Shown here: positions 19,640 to 22,989 of the stretch, in pieces
Numbering within the stretch: position 1 is the stretch's first letter
Layout of the letters: the number at the start of each line of letters is the position of its first letter
NCBI RefSeq assembly: GCF_000212695.1
Contig: NC_015514.1
Span: 372,001 to 436,000 of the forward strand
Length of the DNA stretch: 64,000 nt
From: Cellulomonas fimi ATCC 484
GTDB taxonomy: Bacteria > Actinomycetota > Actinomycetes > Actinomycetales > Cellulomonadaceae
Reading direction: 5' to 3'
Program-made: the position numbers and the translations under genes
The notes under the pieces: model-generated
What the model saw: the letters and a program-made list of their open reading frames with translations, nothing else
The model's database searches: none
Told to the model about the DNA's origin: nothing

Positions 19640-20089
19640 ATGACCGAGCCCCGCAGCACCGCCCGCCGCGTCGCGGACACCCGGCACCGGCTGGAGACCG
19701 ACGTCGACCTCTGGGTCGCGACCGCCGACCCGGCGACCGGCGAGCCGTTCCTGGTGCCGCTGTCGTTCCTGTGGGACGGCGAGACGCTCCTGCTGTCGAC
19801 GCCCGCGTCGAGCCGTACCGCGCGCAACCTCCTCGCGACCGGCCGTGCCCGGCTCGGGGTCGGCGCGACGCGGGACGTCGTGCTCGTGGACGCCGACGTG
19901 GAGGTCGTCGACGCGCTGCCGACCGACGTCGGCGACGCGTTCGCCACCGCGACGGGCTTCGACCCGCGCACCCTCACGGGCTACGCCTGGTTCCGCGCGC
20001 GTCCGCGGACGGTCCAGGCCTGGCGCGAGGCGGACGAGCTGGAGGGGCGCACCGTGCTGCGCGACGGCCGCTGGGTCCTCGAGGCCTGA
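19640..20089 (+). CDS. Pyridoxamine 5'-phosphate oxidase (PPOX) family protein
   Basis: 149-residue split-barrel flavin/F420-binding family protein: VDLWVATADPATGEPFLVPLS followed by FLWDGETLLLSTPASSRTARNL is the standard PPOX opening. Such proteins are often F420H2- or FMN-dependent reductases, but the cofactor cannot be read here. GGAGGAGCCCC precedes the ATG. Its last three codons (GAG GCC TGA) are the first copy of a tandem repeat that continues downstream. Confidence 0.75.
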   Translation: MTEPRSTARRVADTRHRLETDVDLWVATADPATGEPFLVPLSFLWDGETLLLSTPASSRTARNLLATGRARLGVGATRDVVLVDADVEVVDALPTDVGDAFATATGFDPRTLTGYAWFRARPRTVQAWREADELEGRTVLRDGRWVLEA

Positions 20090-20220
20090 CCCGCCCCCGA
20101 GGCCTGACCTGCTCCCGAGGCCTGACCTGCTCCCGAGGCCTCACCGCCCCCGACGCGTGACCTGCCCCCGAGGCCGTCCTGCCCCGAGGCCTGACCCTGC
20201 CGCCGAAGGCCCCGACCTGC
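20081..20220. repeat. Degenerate 18-base tandem repeat containing the stop of the PPOX gene
   Basis: Unit GAGGCCTGACCTGCTCCC. Units starting at 20081, 20099 and 20117 are nearly identical, and at least four decayed units follow to about 20220. The TGA in the first unit is the stop codon of the preceding gene, so the gene's tail has been copied repeatedly. No coding role. Confidence 0.75.
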
Positions 20221-20378
20221 CCCGCGGGCCGTGCCCGGCGGCACCGTGCGACGGGTGCCTCGCGGCCGTCAGCGGGTGAGAAACGAACCGGCGGGTATCA
20301 CTCCGGTGCTCGGCCTCTCCTGGTCGGGTGTTGCTGCCCGCACCGGCGGCGCATCGCCACGACGCAGCAGGGGGGTGA

Positions 20379-20462
20379 ATGGAGATGACGATCGAGATCA
20401 TGGAGGTCGAGGAGATCACCGCGACGCGGATCCACCTCGACCCGGAGGCCGGCGGCGCCTGA
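20379..20462 (+). CDS. Candidate RiPP precursor peptide
   Basis: 27-codon peptide, start MEMTIEIMEV, end RIHLDPEAGGA. An alternative ATG at 20385 gives 25 residues. AGGGGGGTG at 20368-20376 is a plausible ribosome site for either. The N-terminal half is acidic and alternately hydrophobic (IEIMEVEEI), as expected for a leader strand that pairs with an RRE domain; the tail has one Thr-Ala-Thr, one His and a terminal Gly-Gly-Ala. Next come a strong hairpin and two genes for an E1-like enzyme and a membrane protease, each with a leader-binding-like domain. I do not recognise the precursor family; the assignment rests on context. Confidence 0.6.
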   Translation: MEMTIEIMEVEEITATRIHLDPEAGGA

Positions 20463-20474
20463 TCGAGGCCCGCA

Positions 20475-20511
20475 CCGAGGCCGGCCCGGCACACCGCCGG
20501 GCCGGCCTCGG
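20475..20511 (+). terminator. Strong hairpin between peptide gene and E1-like gene (attenuator)
   Basis: A perfect 16-base stem, 20475-20490 paired with 20496-20511, with a 5-base loop ACACC, lies 12 bases after the peptide stop and 29 before the next start. No U-tract follows, so it may be a partial terminator or a transcript stabiliser. Such hairpins commonly let small precursor genes be expressed above their processing enzymes. Confidence 0.75.
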
Positions 20512-20540
20512 CATTCCCACCCCCGTCCCAGGAGGACTCC

Positions 20541-21671
20541 GTGGTTCCCAGGCTCAAGTCCGTCAACTGCCTCGCCGGCGAGGGCGAGCTCGTCGTCAGC
20601 CTCGACCCGAAGGTGCGCGTCCGGCTCGCCGACCCCGACGGTCGCGTCCTCGCGCTGCTGCGCCTGCTGCTCGACGGCTCGCGCGACGAGCCCGCGCTCG
20701 CGGCCGCGCTCCGGGACGCCGGGCACGACGTCACGACCGGCGACGTCCGCGAGGTCGTCGCCCAGCTGGACCGCCTCGGCTGGCTGGAGGACGCGGACGC
20801 CCCGGCCACGTTCGACGCGCACGACCGCGAGCGCTACGCGAGCAACCTGTTCTGGTTCGACGCGTTCACGACGCTCGCCACCCCGCGCGAGGAGCCGCAG
20901 CGCCGGCTCCGGGACGCGCACGTGCTCGTGCTCGGCGCGGGCGGGCTCGGCTCGGCGGTGCTCATGAACCTCGCGGGGCTGGGCGTCGGCTCGCTCACGG
21001 TGGTCGACCAGGACCTCGTCGAGCTGCGGAACTTCGCACGGCAGTTCACGTACACGGAGGCGGAGGTCGGTCAGCCGAAGGCGGAGCGCGTCGCGGACTG
21101 GCTGCGGGCGTTCGACCCGACGCTGCGGGTGGATGCGGAGCGTCGGCGTGTGGAGTCGACGCAGGACGTCGCGGCCCTGCTGGACAGGGCACGGCCGGAC
21201 CTGGTGGTGTCCGCGATCGACGAGCCCGACGAGGTCGACCGCTGGGTCAACGCGGCCTGCGTCGCGGCGGGTGTGCCGTTCGTGCGCGGCGGCCTCGCGT
21301 ACACGCAGGGGCTGTACTGGTCGGTGGACCCGGGCGTCGGGGCCTGCCGCGAGTGCCTGGAGCGACACCGGGAGCGGCTGGCGACGGGCGTGGACCGGCA
21401 GGCCGTCGAGTGGCCGCGGGTCCTGCAGCAGGTGCGGGTGAACCGCGCGATCGGGCCGGTCGCGCAGGTGCTCGGCGGGCTCGTCGCGCTCGAGGCGCTG
21501 CGTTTCCTCACGCGCGACCTGCCCGGGATGCCCCAGCCGGTCGCGTCCGGCCGGTACCGGCTCGTGGACCTCGCGGGCGACTGCTCGACGAGCACCGACG
21601 CCTGGCCTGCCGACCCCGGCTGCCCGGTGTGCGCGGCTGCTCCCGCCCGCCGGTCCGCCGCGGCGGCCTGA
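20541..21671 (+). CDS. RRE-like domain fused to E1/ThiF-family adenylyltransferase
   Basis: 376 residues. Residues ~10-85 look like a winged-helix leader-binding (RRE/PqqD-like) domain, with a strand LVVSLDPKVRVRL and helices ending in VVAQLDRLGWLED. From ~125 follows a ThiF/MoeB/MccB-type fold: ATP loop LGAGGLGSAV (132-138), VVDQD (Asp156), NFARQ (Arg167), QPKAERV (Lys180), and zinc ligands CREC (269/272) and CPVC (361/364). Such enzymes adenylate a peptide C-terminus. AGGAGG precedes the GTG. MccB and cyclodehydratase partners share this plan, but no YcaO gene is here. Likely it modifies the product of 20379-20462. Confidence 0.78.
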   Translation: MVPRLKSVNCLAGEGELVVSLDPKVRVRLADPDGRVLALLRLLLDGSRDEPALAAALRDAGHDVTTGDVREVVAQLDRLGWLEDADAPATFDAHDRERYASNLFWFDAFTTLATPREEPQRRLRDAHVLVLGAGGLGSAVLMNLAGLGVGSLTVVDQDLVELRNFARQFTYTEAEVGQPKAERVADWLRAFDPTLRVDAERRRVESTQDVAALLDRARPDLVVSAIDEPDEVDRWVNAACVAAGVPFVRGGLAYTQGLYWSVDPGVGACRECLERHRERLATGVDRQAVEWPRVLQQVRVNRAIGPVAQVLGGLVALEALRFLTRDLPGMPQPVASGRYRLVDLAGDCSTSTDAWPADPGCPVCAAAPARRSAAAA

Positions 21672-21675
21672 GCCG

Positions 21676-22989
21676 ATGACGACGACGAGCGACGCGCCGA
21701 CCGCTGCCGACGCCGCCGGCGGGACCGTCTCCGCCGCGGACGTCGTCCGCCCGTCGTCCGTCCTGCGCCTGCACCCGCTGACGACGACGCCGCAGGGCGA
21801 CCGCGTGGTCGTCGGCAACCCCGCGACGGGCCGCTTCGTCGCGCTCCCGGAGGTGGGCGCGCGAGCGCTCGCGCTGCTGGGCGCGGGCCGCACCGTGGCC
21901 GAGGTCGAGCGGGCGGTGACGCCCCGCGACGCGGCGGAACCGGTCGACGTGCTGGCGTTCGCCCGCTCGCTCGTGGGACTGGGGTTCGTGGCGTCCGTCG
22001 ACGAGGCGGACGTGCGGGCGCAGGCCCCGCAGGACCGCCCGGGTCGCGGCTGGGTCGTCGCTCCGCGCGCGCGGGCGCGCTGGCTGTTCGGCCGGACGGC
22101 GGCGGTGCTGGCGGCGCTCGCGGCCGTGGTCGCGGTCGGGGTCATGCTCACGGTGGACCGGGTCCGCCCGGACGCGCTGGACGTCTTCTTCCTGCCCAGC
22201 GCGGCGCAGAGCCTCGCGGTGGTCACGCTCGCGACGTACGTGCTGGCGGGGCTGCACGAGCTCGCGCACGTCCTGGCGGCCGCCGCGCTGGGGGTGCCCG
22301 CCCGGCTGCGGATCACCCGGCGCCTGTACTTCCTCACGTTCGAGACGAACCTGACCGGCCTGTGGGCGCTGCCGCCGCGGCGCCGCGTGGGGCCGCTGCT
22401 GGCGGGGATGGGGTTCGACGCGCTCGTGCTGCTGGCGGCGCTGCTGCTGCGCGTCGCGGGCGTCGGCCCGGACGCGTTCCTCGCGGCGGTCGTCGTGGTC
22501 GAGCTGTCCGCGCTCGTCGTGCAGCTCTTCGTGTTCCTGCGCTCGGACGTCTACGCGGTCATGACGGCCCTGCTCGGCTGCACGGTGCTGGACCGCACGA
22601 CGCGGCTGCTGCTGCGCCGCACGGTGCGTCGCCTGTCGCCCGCCCAGCAGGACGAGCTCGCGGCGACACCCGCCCGGGACCTCGCCGTGGCCCGCTGGTA
22701 CCGGTGGGTGCACGTCGCCGGGTACGCGGTCGCGGCCTGGTTCTTCGTCGCGTTCTTCGTGCCGTCGACGTGGCACCTGCTGGTGTGGGTGCGCGACGCG
22801 GTCGCGGTGCACGGACCGGCGACGTGGCCGTTCTGGGAGGCGCTGCTGCTGGGCGCGGTGCTGCTGTCGCCGCGCGTCGTCACCGGGGTGGTCGCGCTGC
22901 GGGACCTGGCCGGGCGCCACCGGGTCAGAGCGGCTCGGGCGCGTCCTGCTCGTCGGCGTGCGCGACGTGCCGCAGCTGCCGCCAGATGA
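21676..22989 (+). CDS. RRE-like domain fused to M50-type membrane metalloprotease
   Basis: 437 residues. Residues ~28-110 have a second PqqD/RRE-like domain (DRVVVGNPATGRFVALPEVG, then a helix pair ending LVGLGFVASVD). The rest has about six or seven membrane helices with a zinc-protease motif HELAH (His194, Glu195, His198) and a later GMGFDAL whose Asp248 may be the third ligand, as in site-2 proteases. It starts five bases after the E1-like gene, so one operon. Probable role: removal of the leader or activation of the peptide at the membrane. The 3' end overlaps the convergent MFS gene by 65 bases. Confidence 0.75.
   Translation: MTTTSDAPTAADAAGGTVSAADVVRPSSVLRLHPLTTTPQGDRVVVGNPATGRFVALPEVGARALALLGAGRTVAEVERAVTPRDAAEPVDVLAFARSLVGLGFVASVDEADVRAQAPQDRPGRGWVVAPRARARWLFGRTAAVLAALAAVVAVGVMLTVDRVRPDALDVFFLPSAAQSLAVVTLATYVLAGLHELAHVLAAAALGVPARLRITRRLYFLTFETNLTGLWALPPRRRVGPLLAGMGFDALVLLAALLLRVAGVGPDAFLAAVVVVELSALVVQLFVFLRSDVYAVMTALLGCTVLDRTTRLLLRRTVRRLSPAQQDELAATPARDLAVARWYRWVHVAGYAVAAWFFVAFFVPSTWHLLVWVRDAVAVHGPATWPFWEALLLGAVLLSPRVVTGVVALRDLAGRHRVRAARARPARRRARRAAAAAR

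Follow-up and report, generated by a model that had tools for sequence, protein, structure and literature searches.

Several ribosomally synthesized and post-translationally modified peptides (RiPPs) are matured by enzymes in which a RiPP recognition element (RRE) is joined to a ThiF-like domain that activates a carboxylate with ATP. In the accessible parts of two papers, the acyl-AMP formed by such RRE-ThiF enzymes is described as ending in a phosphoramidate, a bicycle, a thiolactone, a putative imide or an indolylamide (PMC12250964, PMC12150305), and the product of EnfB still needs nuclear magnetic resonance work (PMC12150305). The first of these, a 2025 review, covers four ThiF RiPP groups in its main text, where a word search finds neither M50 nor actinobacter-, while the accessible part of the second mentions further unannotated RRE-ThiF network clusters; RRE-Finder (PMC7470986) and RRE structures (PMC12710340; also PMC13361665) are treated in other papers. 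Here, we analyze a 64,000-nucleotide stretch of the genome of Cellulomonas fimi ATCC 484 (NC_015514.1, a single 4.27-Mb contig, positions 372,001 to 436,000; hereafter the window), in which a very small peptide gene, an E1/ThiF-type gene and an M50-type membrane protease gene form a cassette at positions 20379-22989. The kinds of enzyme are known, but we could not match their combination to any named class, and the trio, which recurs in actinobacteria, seems to represent an unnamed RiPP family. An earlier note on this DNA had likewise known of no class with exactly this set, and we recognized no description of an actinobacterial ThiF plus M50 class in the open-access literature, with the proviso that the supplement of PMC12150305 may list it.

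The reading that we favor, with a rough probability of 0.68, is that the cassette encodes a ThiF-like RiPP pathway, in which precursors with a shared leader would have a carboxylate adenylated by the E1 enzyme and the M50 protease would then release a short modified core. All features lie on the forward strand of the window, in the order small open reading frame, RNA hairpin, E1/ThiF gene and M50-type gene, as the earlier note had reported. The same note had counted 27 codons for the peptide gene; the gene is present, but its start is better placed one ATG later, because the Cellulomonas relatives compared keep only the second ATG (20385) and lack the first (20379). The real gene is thus probably 20385-20462, within the open reading frame 20379-20462, and would encode the 25-residue peptide MTIEIMEVEEITATRIHLDPEAGGA, with 20379 as the alternative start. 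The RBS-like (ribosome-binding) site AGGGGGG (20369-20375) lies nine bases 5' of the ATG at 20385, and relatives are also G-rich before the peptide. The leader comprises residues 1-14 (20385-20426) and terminates in the Thr found in family precursors, followed by the predicted core RIHLDPEAGGA (20427-20459), whose boundary is set by a putative cut site. Across the ten genes compared, codons 8-20 show synonymous differences only, and codons 4, 6 and 7 change the residue. The E1/ThiF-like adenylyltransferase gene (20541-21671; GTG start, 376 residues, PF00899 at 1e-50) is followed, four bases past its stop codon, by the M50-type metalloprotease gene (21676-22989; 437 residues).

The distribution of the trio supports this reading. 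We examined 76 loci, of which 61 hold both E1 and M50 genes, six an E1 gene only and nine an M50 gene only. Of the 61 complete loci, 59 encode a peptide that combines the leader motif with a start codon and an RBS-like site, as do one of the six E1-only loci and two of the nine M50-only loci; among the controls, such a peptide appeared in 0 of 61 antisense scans, in 1 of 305 dinucleotide shuffles and in none of 25 loci that hold other relatives of ThiF or M50 proteins. Pairwise distances of E1 and M50 proteins agree closely across 60 loci (r 0.975, as against 0.155 for the best of 2000 permutations). The trio is real and far beyond chance, and it is probably functional; a short precursor, made of a 13-residue conserved leader segment and a core of 4-14 residues, is almost certainly encoded together with an RRE-bearing E1 enzyme and an RRE-bearing M50 protease, judging from profiles and motifs. 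This lends good support to the proposal of the earlier note that the locus is a RiPP-like unit with only two maturation proteins. Its suggested check, the co-occurrence of both enzyme genes with an upstream peptide, held for co-occurrence but not always for the upstream position: the peptide gene may stand 5' of the E1 gene, between the E1 and M50 genes or, in Streptomyces, 3' of the M50 gene.

These counts do not come from a random sample, given that 40 of the listed E1 matches of one family (f35) were taken, mainly the top ones. This family is very likely Streptosporangiaceae, because a Nonomuraea record has a precursor identical to those of f35. Excluded from the 61 were L006 and L007 (duplicates of L029 and L025), L030 and L031 (contigs that begin inside the M50 gene), L093 (weak M50), L159 and the match loci L032-L067 and L094-L103, which are mostly the same places; L057-L067 and L094-L103, scanned separately, gave the peptide in 18 of 21. 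Redundant but counted are L092, which repeats L028, and L145, which is near L144.

Within Cellulomonas, the peptide is present in all nine other tabulated loci and in 8 of 11 further match loci; the remaining three are a locus that is too short (L064, whose genome holds the peptide at L091) and two with partial M50 matches (L066, L067). The protease search of the genus found 12 of 81 genomes, its own included and two matches partial, and the nine protease relatives from named genomes are all Cellulomonas. At class level, the protease profile matched 17 of 394 genomes, again with its own included, and the E1 profile matched 89 of 250 genomes in family f35. Phylum-wide, the protease profile found 21 of 396 genomes. 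Of these, 17 score 59-71 bits only and probably represent different M50 proteins; the single strong match from beyond the class (genome G846, L159) lies on a 4.2-kb contig that yielded no leader-motif peptide. An E1 match is present in 19 Streptomyces plasmid records. On two large linear Streptomyces megaplasmids (L144, L145) the trio is present, with the peptide MEIKVRKVEDVKATGLQV 3' of the M50 gene, and the annotation of one Streptomyces megaplasmid reads BTAD regulator, ThiF family adenylyltransferase, hypothetical protein. A search of phages gave no DNA match.

The precursors share a compact leader signature. In 43 tabulated precursors, hydrophobic residues stand at -12, -10 and -7, Glu or Asp at -6 and Thr at -1, followed by the core; in the window, the motif occurs once when both strands are scanned. 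The table was hand-picked, mainly from the set scanned for the 61 loci, with many near-identical peptides omitted, and its pattern requires Thr at -1, so that its 43 of 43 cannot stand alone. The pattern used for the 61-locus count imposes the hydrophobic spacing, Glu or Asp at -6 and Thr or Ser at -1. When it was freed at -6 and -1, with the hydrophobic spacing still imposed, the same 62 precursors were recovered, with Thr in 62 of 62 and Glu in 48 or Asp in 14 at -6. Freeing both positions added only one extra open reading frame in the 61 loci (antisense, 1 of 61), and the conservation at -6 and -1 is therefore not an artefact of the search. An NCBIfam scan of nine precursor peptides assigned no family, with one chance-level match (E 0.18).

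The E1 enzyme appears to carry its own leader-binding domain. A profile of its 95 N-terminal residues matches residues 8-91 of the pantocin enzyme PaaA at E 3.3e-11, the next best match being 0.0017, and a 42-member family profile has PaaA (5ff5) as its top PDB match at E 1.4e-53 over profile positions 3-343, with MccB second at E 2.5e-53 but only from position 93 onward. Residues 3-85 (20547-20795; profile A7 against PaaA) thus appear to form a fused PaaA-type RRE-like domain, which would bear out the leader-binding N-terminus that the earlier note had expected. The ThiF catalytic domain follows at residues 116-361 (20886-21623), with D158, R167, K180 and D227 and zinc-type cysteines at 269/272 and, at its end, at 361/364. 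Among 68 E1 sequences, including six from E1-only loci, D158, K180, D227 and the four cysteines are invariant and R167 is kept in 67. There is no conserved catalytic cysteine at position 240, because the residue is Cys in 34 of 68 only. The accessible parts of the literature report tests of Arg167, Lys180 and Asp225 in EnfB (PMC12250964) and of K179 in IndF, where Q167 had a minor effect (PMC12150305); the ATP-site residues of the family agree with these by number, not by alignment.

These features make it very improbable that the E1 protein serves only as a docking protein, as is reported for ThiF-like partners of YcaO enzymes, or in housekeeping sulphur transfer or E1-E2 defence. ThiF, MoeB and the PADLOC E1-E2 models do match the catalytic domain, but the genome holds no YcaO match at all, which extends to the whole genome the absence that the earlier note had seen locally and also separates the cassette from YcaO-dependent azole and thioamide RiPPs. 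In addition, the ATP and Mg residues are conserved, the NCBIfam ThiF and MoeB scores fall far below their cut-offs, and the listed PADLOC matches are limited to the adenylation domain.

The protease adds a second putative recognition domain. Its HELAH zinc motif (residues 194-198; 22255-22269) and the pair D291-x-Y293 (22546-22554), a probable third zinc ligand region, are kept in their key residues: H194, E195, H198, D291 and Y293 show no exception among 44 proteases, six of which come from M50-only loci. A simple scan finds seven hydrophobic stretches, of which one falls within the N-terminal domain. The window protein stays below the Pfam M50 cut-off (E 0.47) and NCBIfam gives nothing, so that the M50 assignment is made from HExxH in a membrane protein, a distal Asp and the matches of relatives, 11 of 44 of which match PF02163 at E <= 0.01. 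At approximately residues 28-110 (21757-22005), the protease carries what appears to be an RRE/PqqD-like domain, given that its N-terminal profile A8 matches TbiB1 (E 2e-4) and TfuB1 (E 0.004), which we take to be lasso-peptide RRE (B1) proteins. The earlier note had assigned a leader-binding domain to the E1 enzyme alone; that domain is indeed indicated there, but it is apparently not the only one.

M50-type enzymes are known from other peptide pathways. Epipeptides and pearlins have radical SAM and PEARL enzymes as their respective partners, in place of which an E1 enzyme stands here. Their M50 proteases EpeP, TglG and TmoG are likewise tied to peptide maturation in the accessible part of PMC10885120. 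Daptides share an intramembrane HExxH metalloprotease, and their model NF041824 is matched by 8 of 44 family proteases at E <= 0.01, yet the score reaches only 25.9 against a cut-off of 300 (L071) and the window protein gives no match. Daptide maturation uses partners other than an E1 enzyme, in agreement with the distinction drawn by the earlier note. Among the RRE-ThiF systems, GRC, enterofaecin and Ind (GrcB, EnfB, IndF) resemble the cassette in activating a carboxylate with ATP, and there a cycle is formed. In contrast, the GRC precursor has a C-terminal Cys and radical SAM partners, whereas the window core lacks Cys and the ten radical SAM matches in the genome all lie outside the window; enterofaecin and Ind carry Trp motifs close to the C-terminus (WWIVI, NWYFI), whereas RIHLDPEAGGA has no Trp. 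Their partners also differ, comprising radical SAM enzymes, an M16 protease and transporters.

Several observations weigh against the proposed pathway or soften the evidence for it. Two loci with both enzyme genes (L087, L138) yielded no leader-motif peptide, and the co-divergence of E1 and M50 proteins would also follow from joint inheritance without interaction. The leader pattern was composed after the peptides had been seen, so that the controls speak for its specificity and are no independent test. The RRE call for the E1 enzyme comes from broad profiles: with the window E1 alone, MoeB, ThiF and MccB outrank PaaA and PqqD reaches only E 0.7; with a Cellulomonas-only profile, ThiF and MccB still outrank PaaA; and at E <= 0.01 Pfam recognizes PaaA-like_N in 6 of 42 members and PqqD in 6 of 42. 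Beside the window cassette, the sole transporter gene is an MFS gene in convergent orientation, which leaves export unexplained. Finally, the conserved acidic residue belongs to the leader, not to the core, and a leader Glu could itself be the target.

This last point leads to the alternative that the E1 enzyme activates the acidic side chain at -6, as PaaA does on Glu residues of PaaP, and that the remainder of the peptide is a follower. The acidic residue is indeed kept in all 43 tabulated and all 62 freed-pattern precursors, PaaA is the top solved relative of the broad profile, including its N-terminal domain, and the PaaP leader precedes the modified Glu pair (PMC12250964, in part). The pantocin A system (PaaP, PaaA, PaaB, PaaC) is further similar in its fusion of RRE and E1 and in a precursor of about 30 residues. 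We nevertheless regard activation at -6 as rather improbable. The residue is Asp in 10 of 43 precursors, it sits inside an alternating hydrophobic stretch that resembles an RRE-binding strand, and the Cellulomonas core RIHLDP would go unmodified despite its strong constraint. No Glu-Glu-Asn core is conserved across the family, and the residue after the conserved Glu or Asp is variable (VEEIT in the window). Pantocin A moreover has a 2-oxoglutarate-Fe(II) oxygenase and an EamA exporter, neither of which is seen among the scanned neighbours of the window cassette (TetR, abhydrolase, PNPOx and the convergent MFS gene, PF07690), where an M50 protease stands instead.

For the favored pathway, the cores themselves point to the C-terminus. 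They comprise 4-14 residues after the Thr and fall into 33 distinct sequences, for example QFMT, GFAV, GLQV, QNPAT, ANGPH, LIVPGS, GLREGG, TSSNSVGN and RIHLDPEAGGA. A core side-chain carboxylate cannot serve as the general target, because six of the 33 (GFAV, GLQV, ANGPH, VNGPH, GLRNHG and GWRVIGAGG) are free of Asp, Glu, Lys, Cys, Ser and Thr; together with the lack of Lys in all 33 and a last residue of Gly, Ala, Ser or Thr in 26, this makes the C-terminus the likeliest target. Small C-termini such as Gly-Gly are the classical substrates of E1 enzymes. Cores vary between clades but are conserved within Cellulomonas and in L070, and two loci encode multiple precursors with differing cores (L134 two, L137 three). 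L070 belongs to another family and its E1 is 42% identical to the window E1, and its core RIHLDPDAGGA is identical to Cellulomonas ones. Since its E1 groups with that of L108, either selection has maintained an ancient RIHLDP-type core or this core has been transferred.

Capture of an activated C-terminus by the Thr hydroxyl at -1 would close a small macrolactone, whose ring would count one residue more than the core (five for QFMT, GFAV and GLQV); the product would be Agr-type-like but built by E1 and M50 enzymes, with an adjoining SARP protein, where there is one, as receptor. The likeness to Agr-type signals is drawn from the ring sizes of their autoinducing peptides. In line with such a lactone, Thr occupies -1 in 62 of 62 precursor frames although the position was left free, and even the divergent clade with ENTRLT has it at identical spacing. 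At L068, L069, L104, L105, L109, L114 and the E1-only locus L126, the cassette is adjoined by BTAD/SARP proteins that contain NB-ARC and TPR regions, and a BTAD regulator is annotated beside L144, but the scanned loci were picked for a long adjoining gene and the window cassette has no SARP gene beside it. Two M50-only loci, L085 (oriented 5751; MKKLVVRKLEPIKTSANADCVPAAA) and L089 (oriented 5308; MKKLIVRRLESVKTSAATSCSVVVA), carry a leader-type peptide with a core Cys and keep Ser at -1 with no E1 gene found, so that the leader-M50 module seems separable from the E1 enzyme. The leader-like peptide of the E1-only locus L133, MPKKEKETRIKIRKLEKTETATVLCSSSA, departs from the pattern at the final position, where alignment places Ala. 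The residue may thus serve protease recognition: because M50-only precursors keep Ser without an E1 enzyme and L133 seemingly has Ala, the evidence leans toward the conserved Thr being a protease or leader determinant and not a lactone nucleophile, and we consider the macrolactone unlikely.

The activated tail might alternatively be joined to an outside nucleophile, either an amine or, as in microcin C, a nucleotide such as AMP, to give a Trojan-horse antibiotic. MccB is among the best PDB matches, sequence-independent cores would suit a reaction that needs only the C-terminus, and microcin C7 (MccA, MccB) is alike in its very short peptide, its E1 homologue and a tail that is probably activated here as well. 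One clade even ends in Asn (TSSNSVGN, NASNSVGN), as does the 7-mer MccA, but 31 of 33 distinct cores do not, and the window core ends in Ala. The accessible part of a review of mcc sets mentions no M50 protease, and no immunity gene was identified among the partly scanned neighbours. A conjugate of this kind is accordingly a doubtful candidate.

Taken together, the favored pathway would proceed as follows, with degrees of confidence that are rough, uncomputed estimates. Both enzymes would engage the same leader. The PaaA-like domain of the E1 enzyme very probably docks the leader strand and feeds the tail into the ATP site. The E1 enzyme would then adenylate a carboxylate, and with moderate confidence we place this at the C-terminus. 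The acyl-AMP may be captured by an internal nucleophile, to yield a small macrocycle or an imide in the manner of GrcB, EnfB or IndF, or by an external one, to yield an amide or a nucleotide conjugate. The M50 protease, with an RRE of its own for docking, would probably cut near the conserved Thr and free the modified core at or across the membrane. As a guess, the cassette yields a signalling molecule or an antibiotic with a narrow target, and a signalling role for the window cassette is equally a guess.

The hairpin between the peptide and E1 genes (20475-20511; 16 pairs) is a further conserved feature. The surrounding 78-nucleotide stretch has a folding z of -4.8, and none of 200 shuffles folds as well. 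Across ten Cellulomonas sequences, 91.2% of hairpin cells are paired, and five pairs show changes on both sides, with the three outer pairs poorly preserved. Both sides are altered in 17 cells, where the shuffles average 7.1, and neither this count nor the covariation score is reached by any of 500 shuffles; two other measures do not clearly exceed the shuffles (both-side-changed pairs, 47 of 500; further pair types, 474 of 500). The hairpin is thus kept with compensatory changes, but the covariation picture is mixed. It lacks a T-run, promoter and terminator scans of the region found none, and Rfam gave no match; possibly, it raises peptide output relative to the enzymes.

The genomic surroundings of the cassette differ, with at least two settings within Cellulomonas. 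At least two neighbours are common to the window and L024, L026, L030, L031 and L091; L028 and L092 share only the MFS gene, and L023, L025, L027 and L029 share none of the tested neighbours, nor does L008 (4.1 kb only). The MFS neighbour is retained in one Cellulomonas subgroup, and in the window it overlaps the 3' end of the M50 gene by about 65 bases (22925-22989). Just 5' of the cassette lies a GC-rich tandem repeat (20080-20223; 18-bp period, about eight copies). In L073 and L077, the scanned representatives of similar f35 loci, a DUF6879 gene (PF21806) stands between peptide and M50 gene. M50 relatives at L072, L074, L075, L079, L080, L086 and L090 have neither an E1 gene nor a leader-motif peptide; the next genes at L072 encode a 710-residue TPR protein and a flavin oxidoreductase (PF00724), similar long genes occur in most others, and these relatives may form a separate M50-TPR system. 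Distant ThiF genes on a Salmonella plasmid (L147) and a Sporosarcina plasmid (L148) are followed by MFS and ABC transporter genes, respectively, which suggests other ThiF peptide systems.

These findings would add a seeming class to the few published ThiF-like RiPP pathways, with simple genetics of one peptide and two enzymes. The precursors are small enough to escape ordinary gene calling, and the window protease is named by neither Pfam nor NCBIfam. Cores of just four residues would indicate how small a segment two leader-guided enzymes may be able to act on. In its most specific and speculative form, which we think unlikely as a whole, this RiPP class would use an E1 enzyme and an RRE-guided intramembrane protease to turn precursors of 18-41 residues into products of 4-14 residues, perhaps a Thr-closed macrolactone pheromone that is sensed by SARP proteins in some hosts. 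If true, the pheromone would be an actinobacterial counterpart of Agr-type signalling, made by unrelated enzymes. If the products are antibiotics, the cassette could easily be moved and varied in laboratory strains; if they are signals, peptide communication in actinomycetes would become open to direct test.

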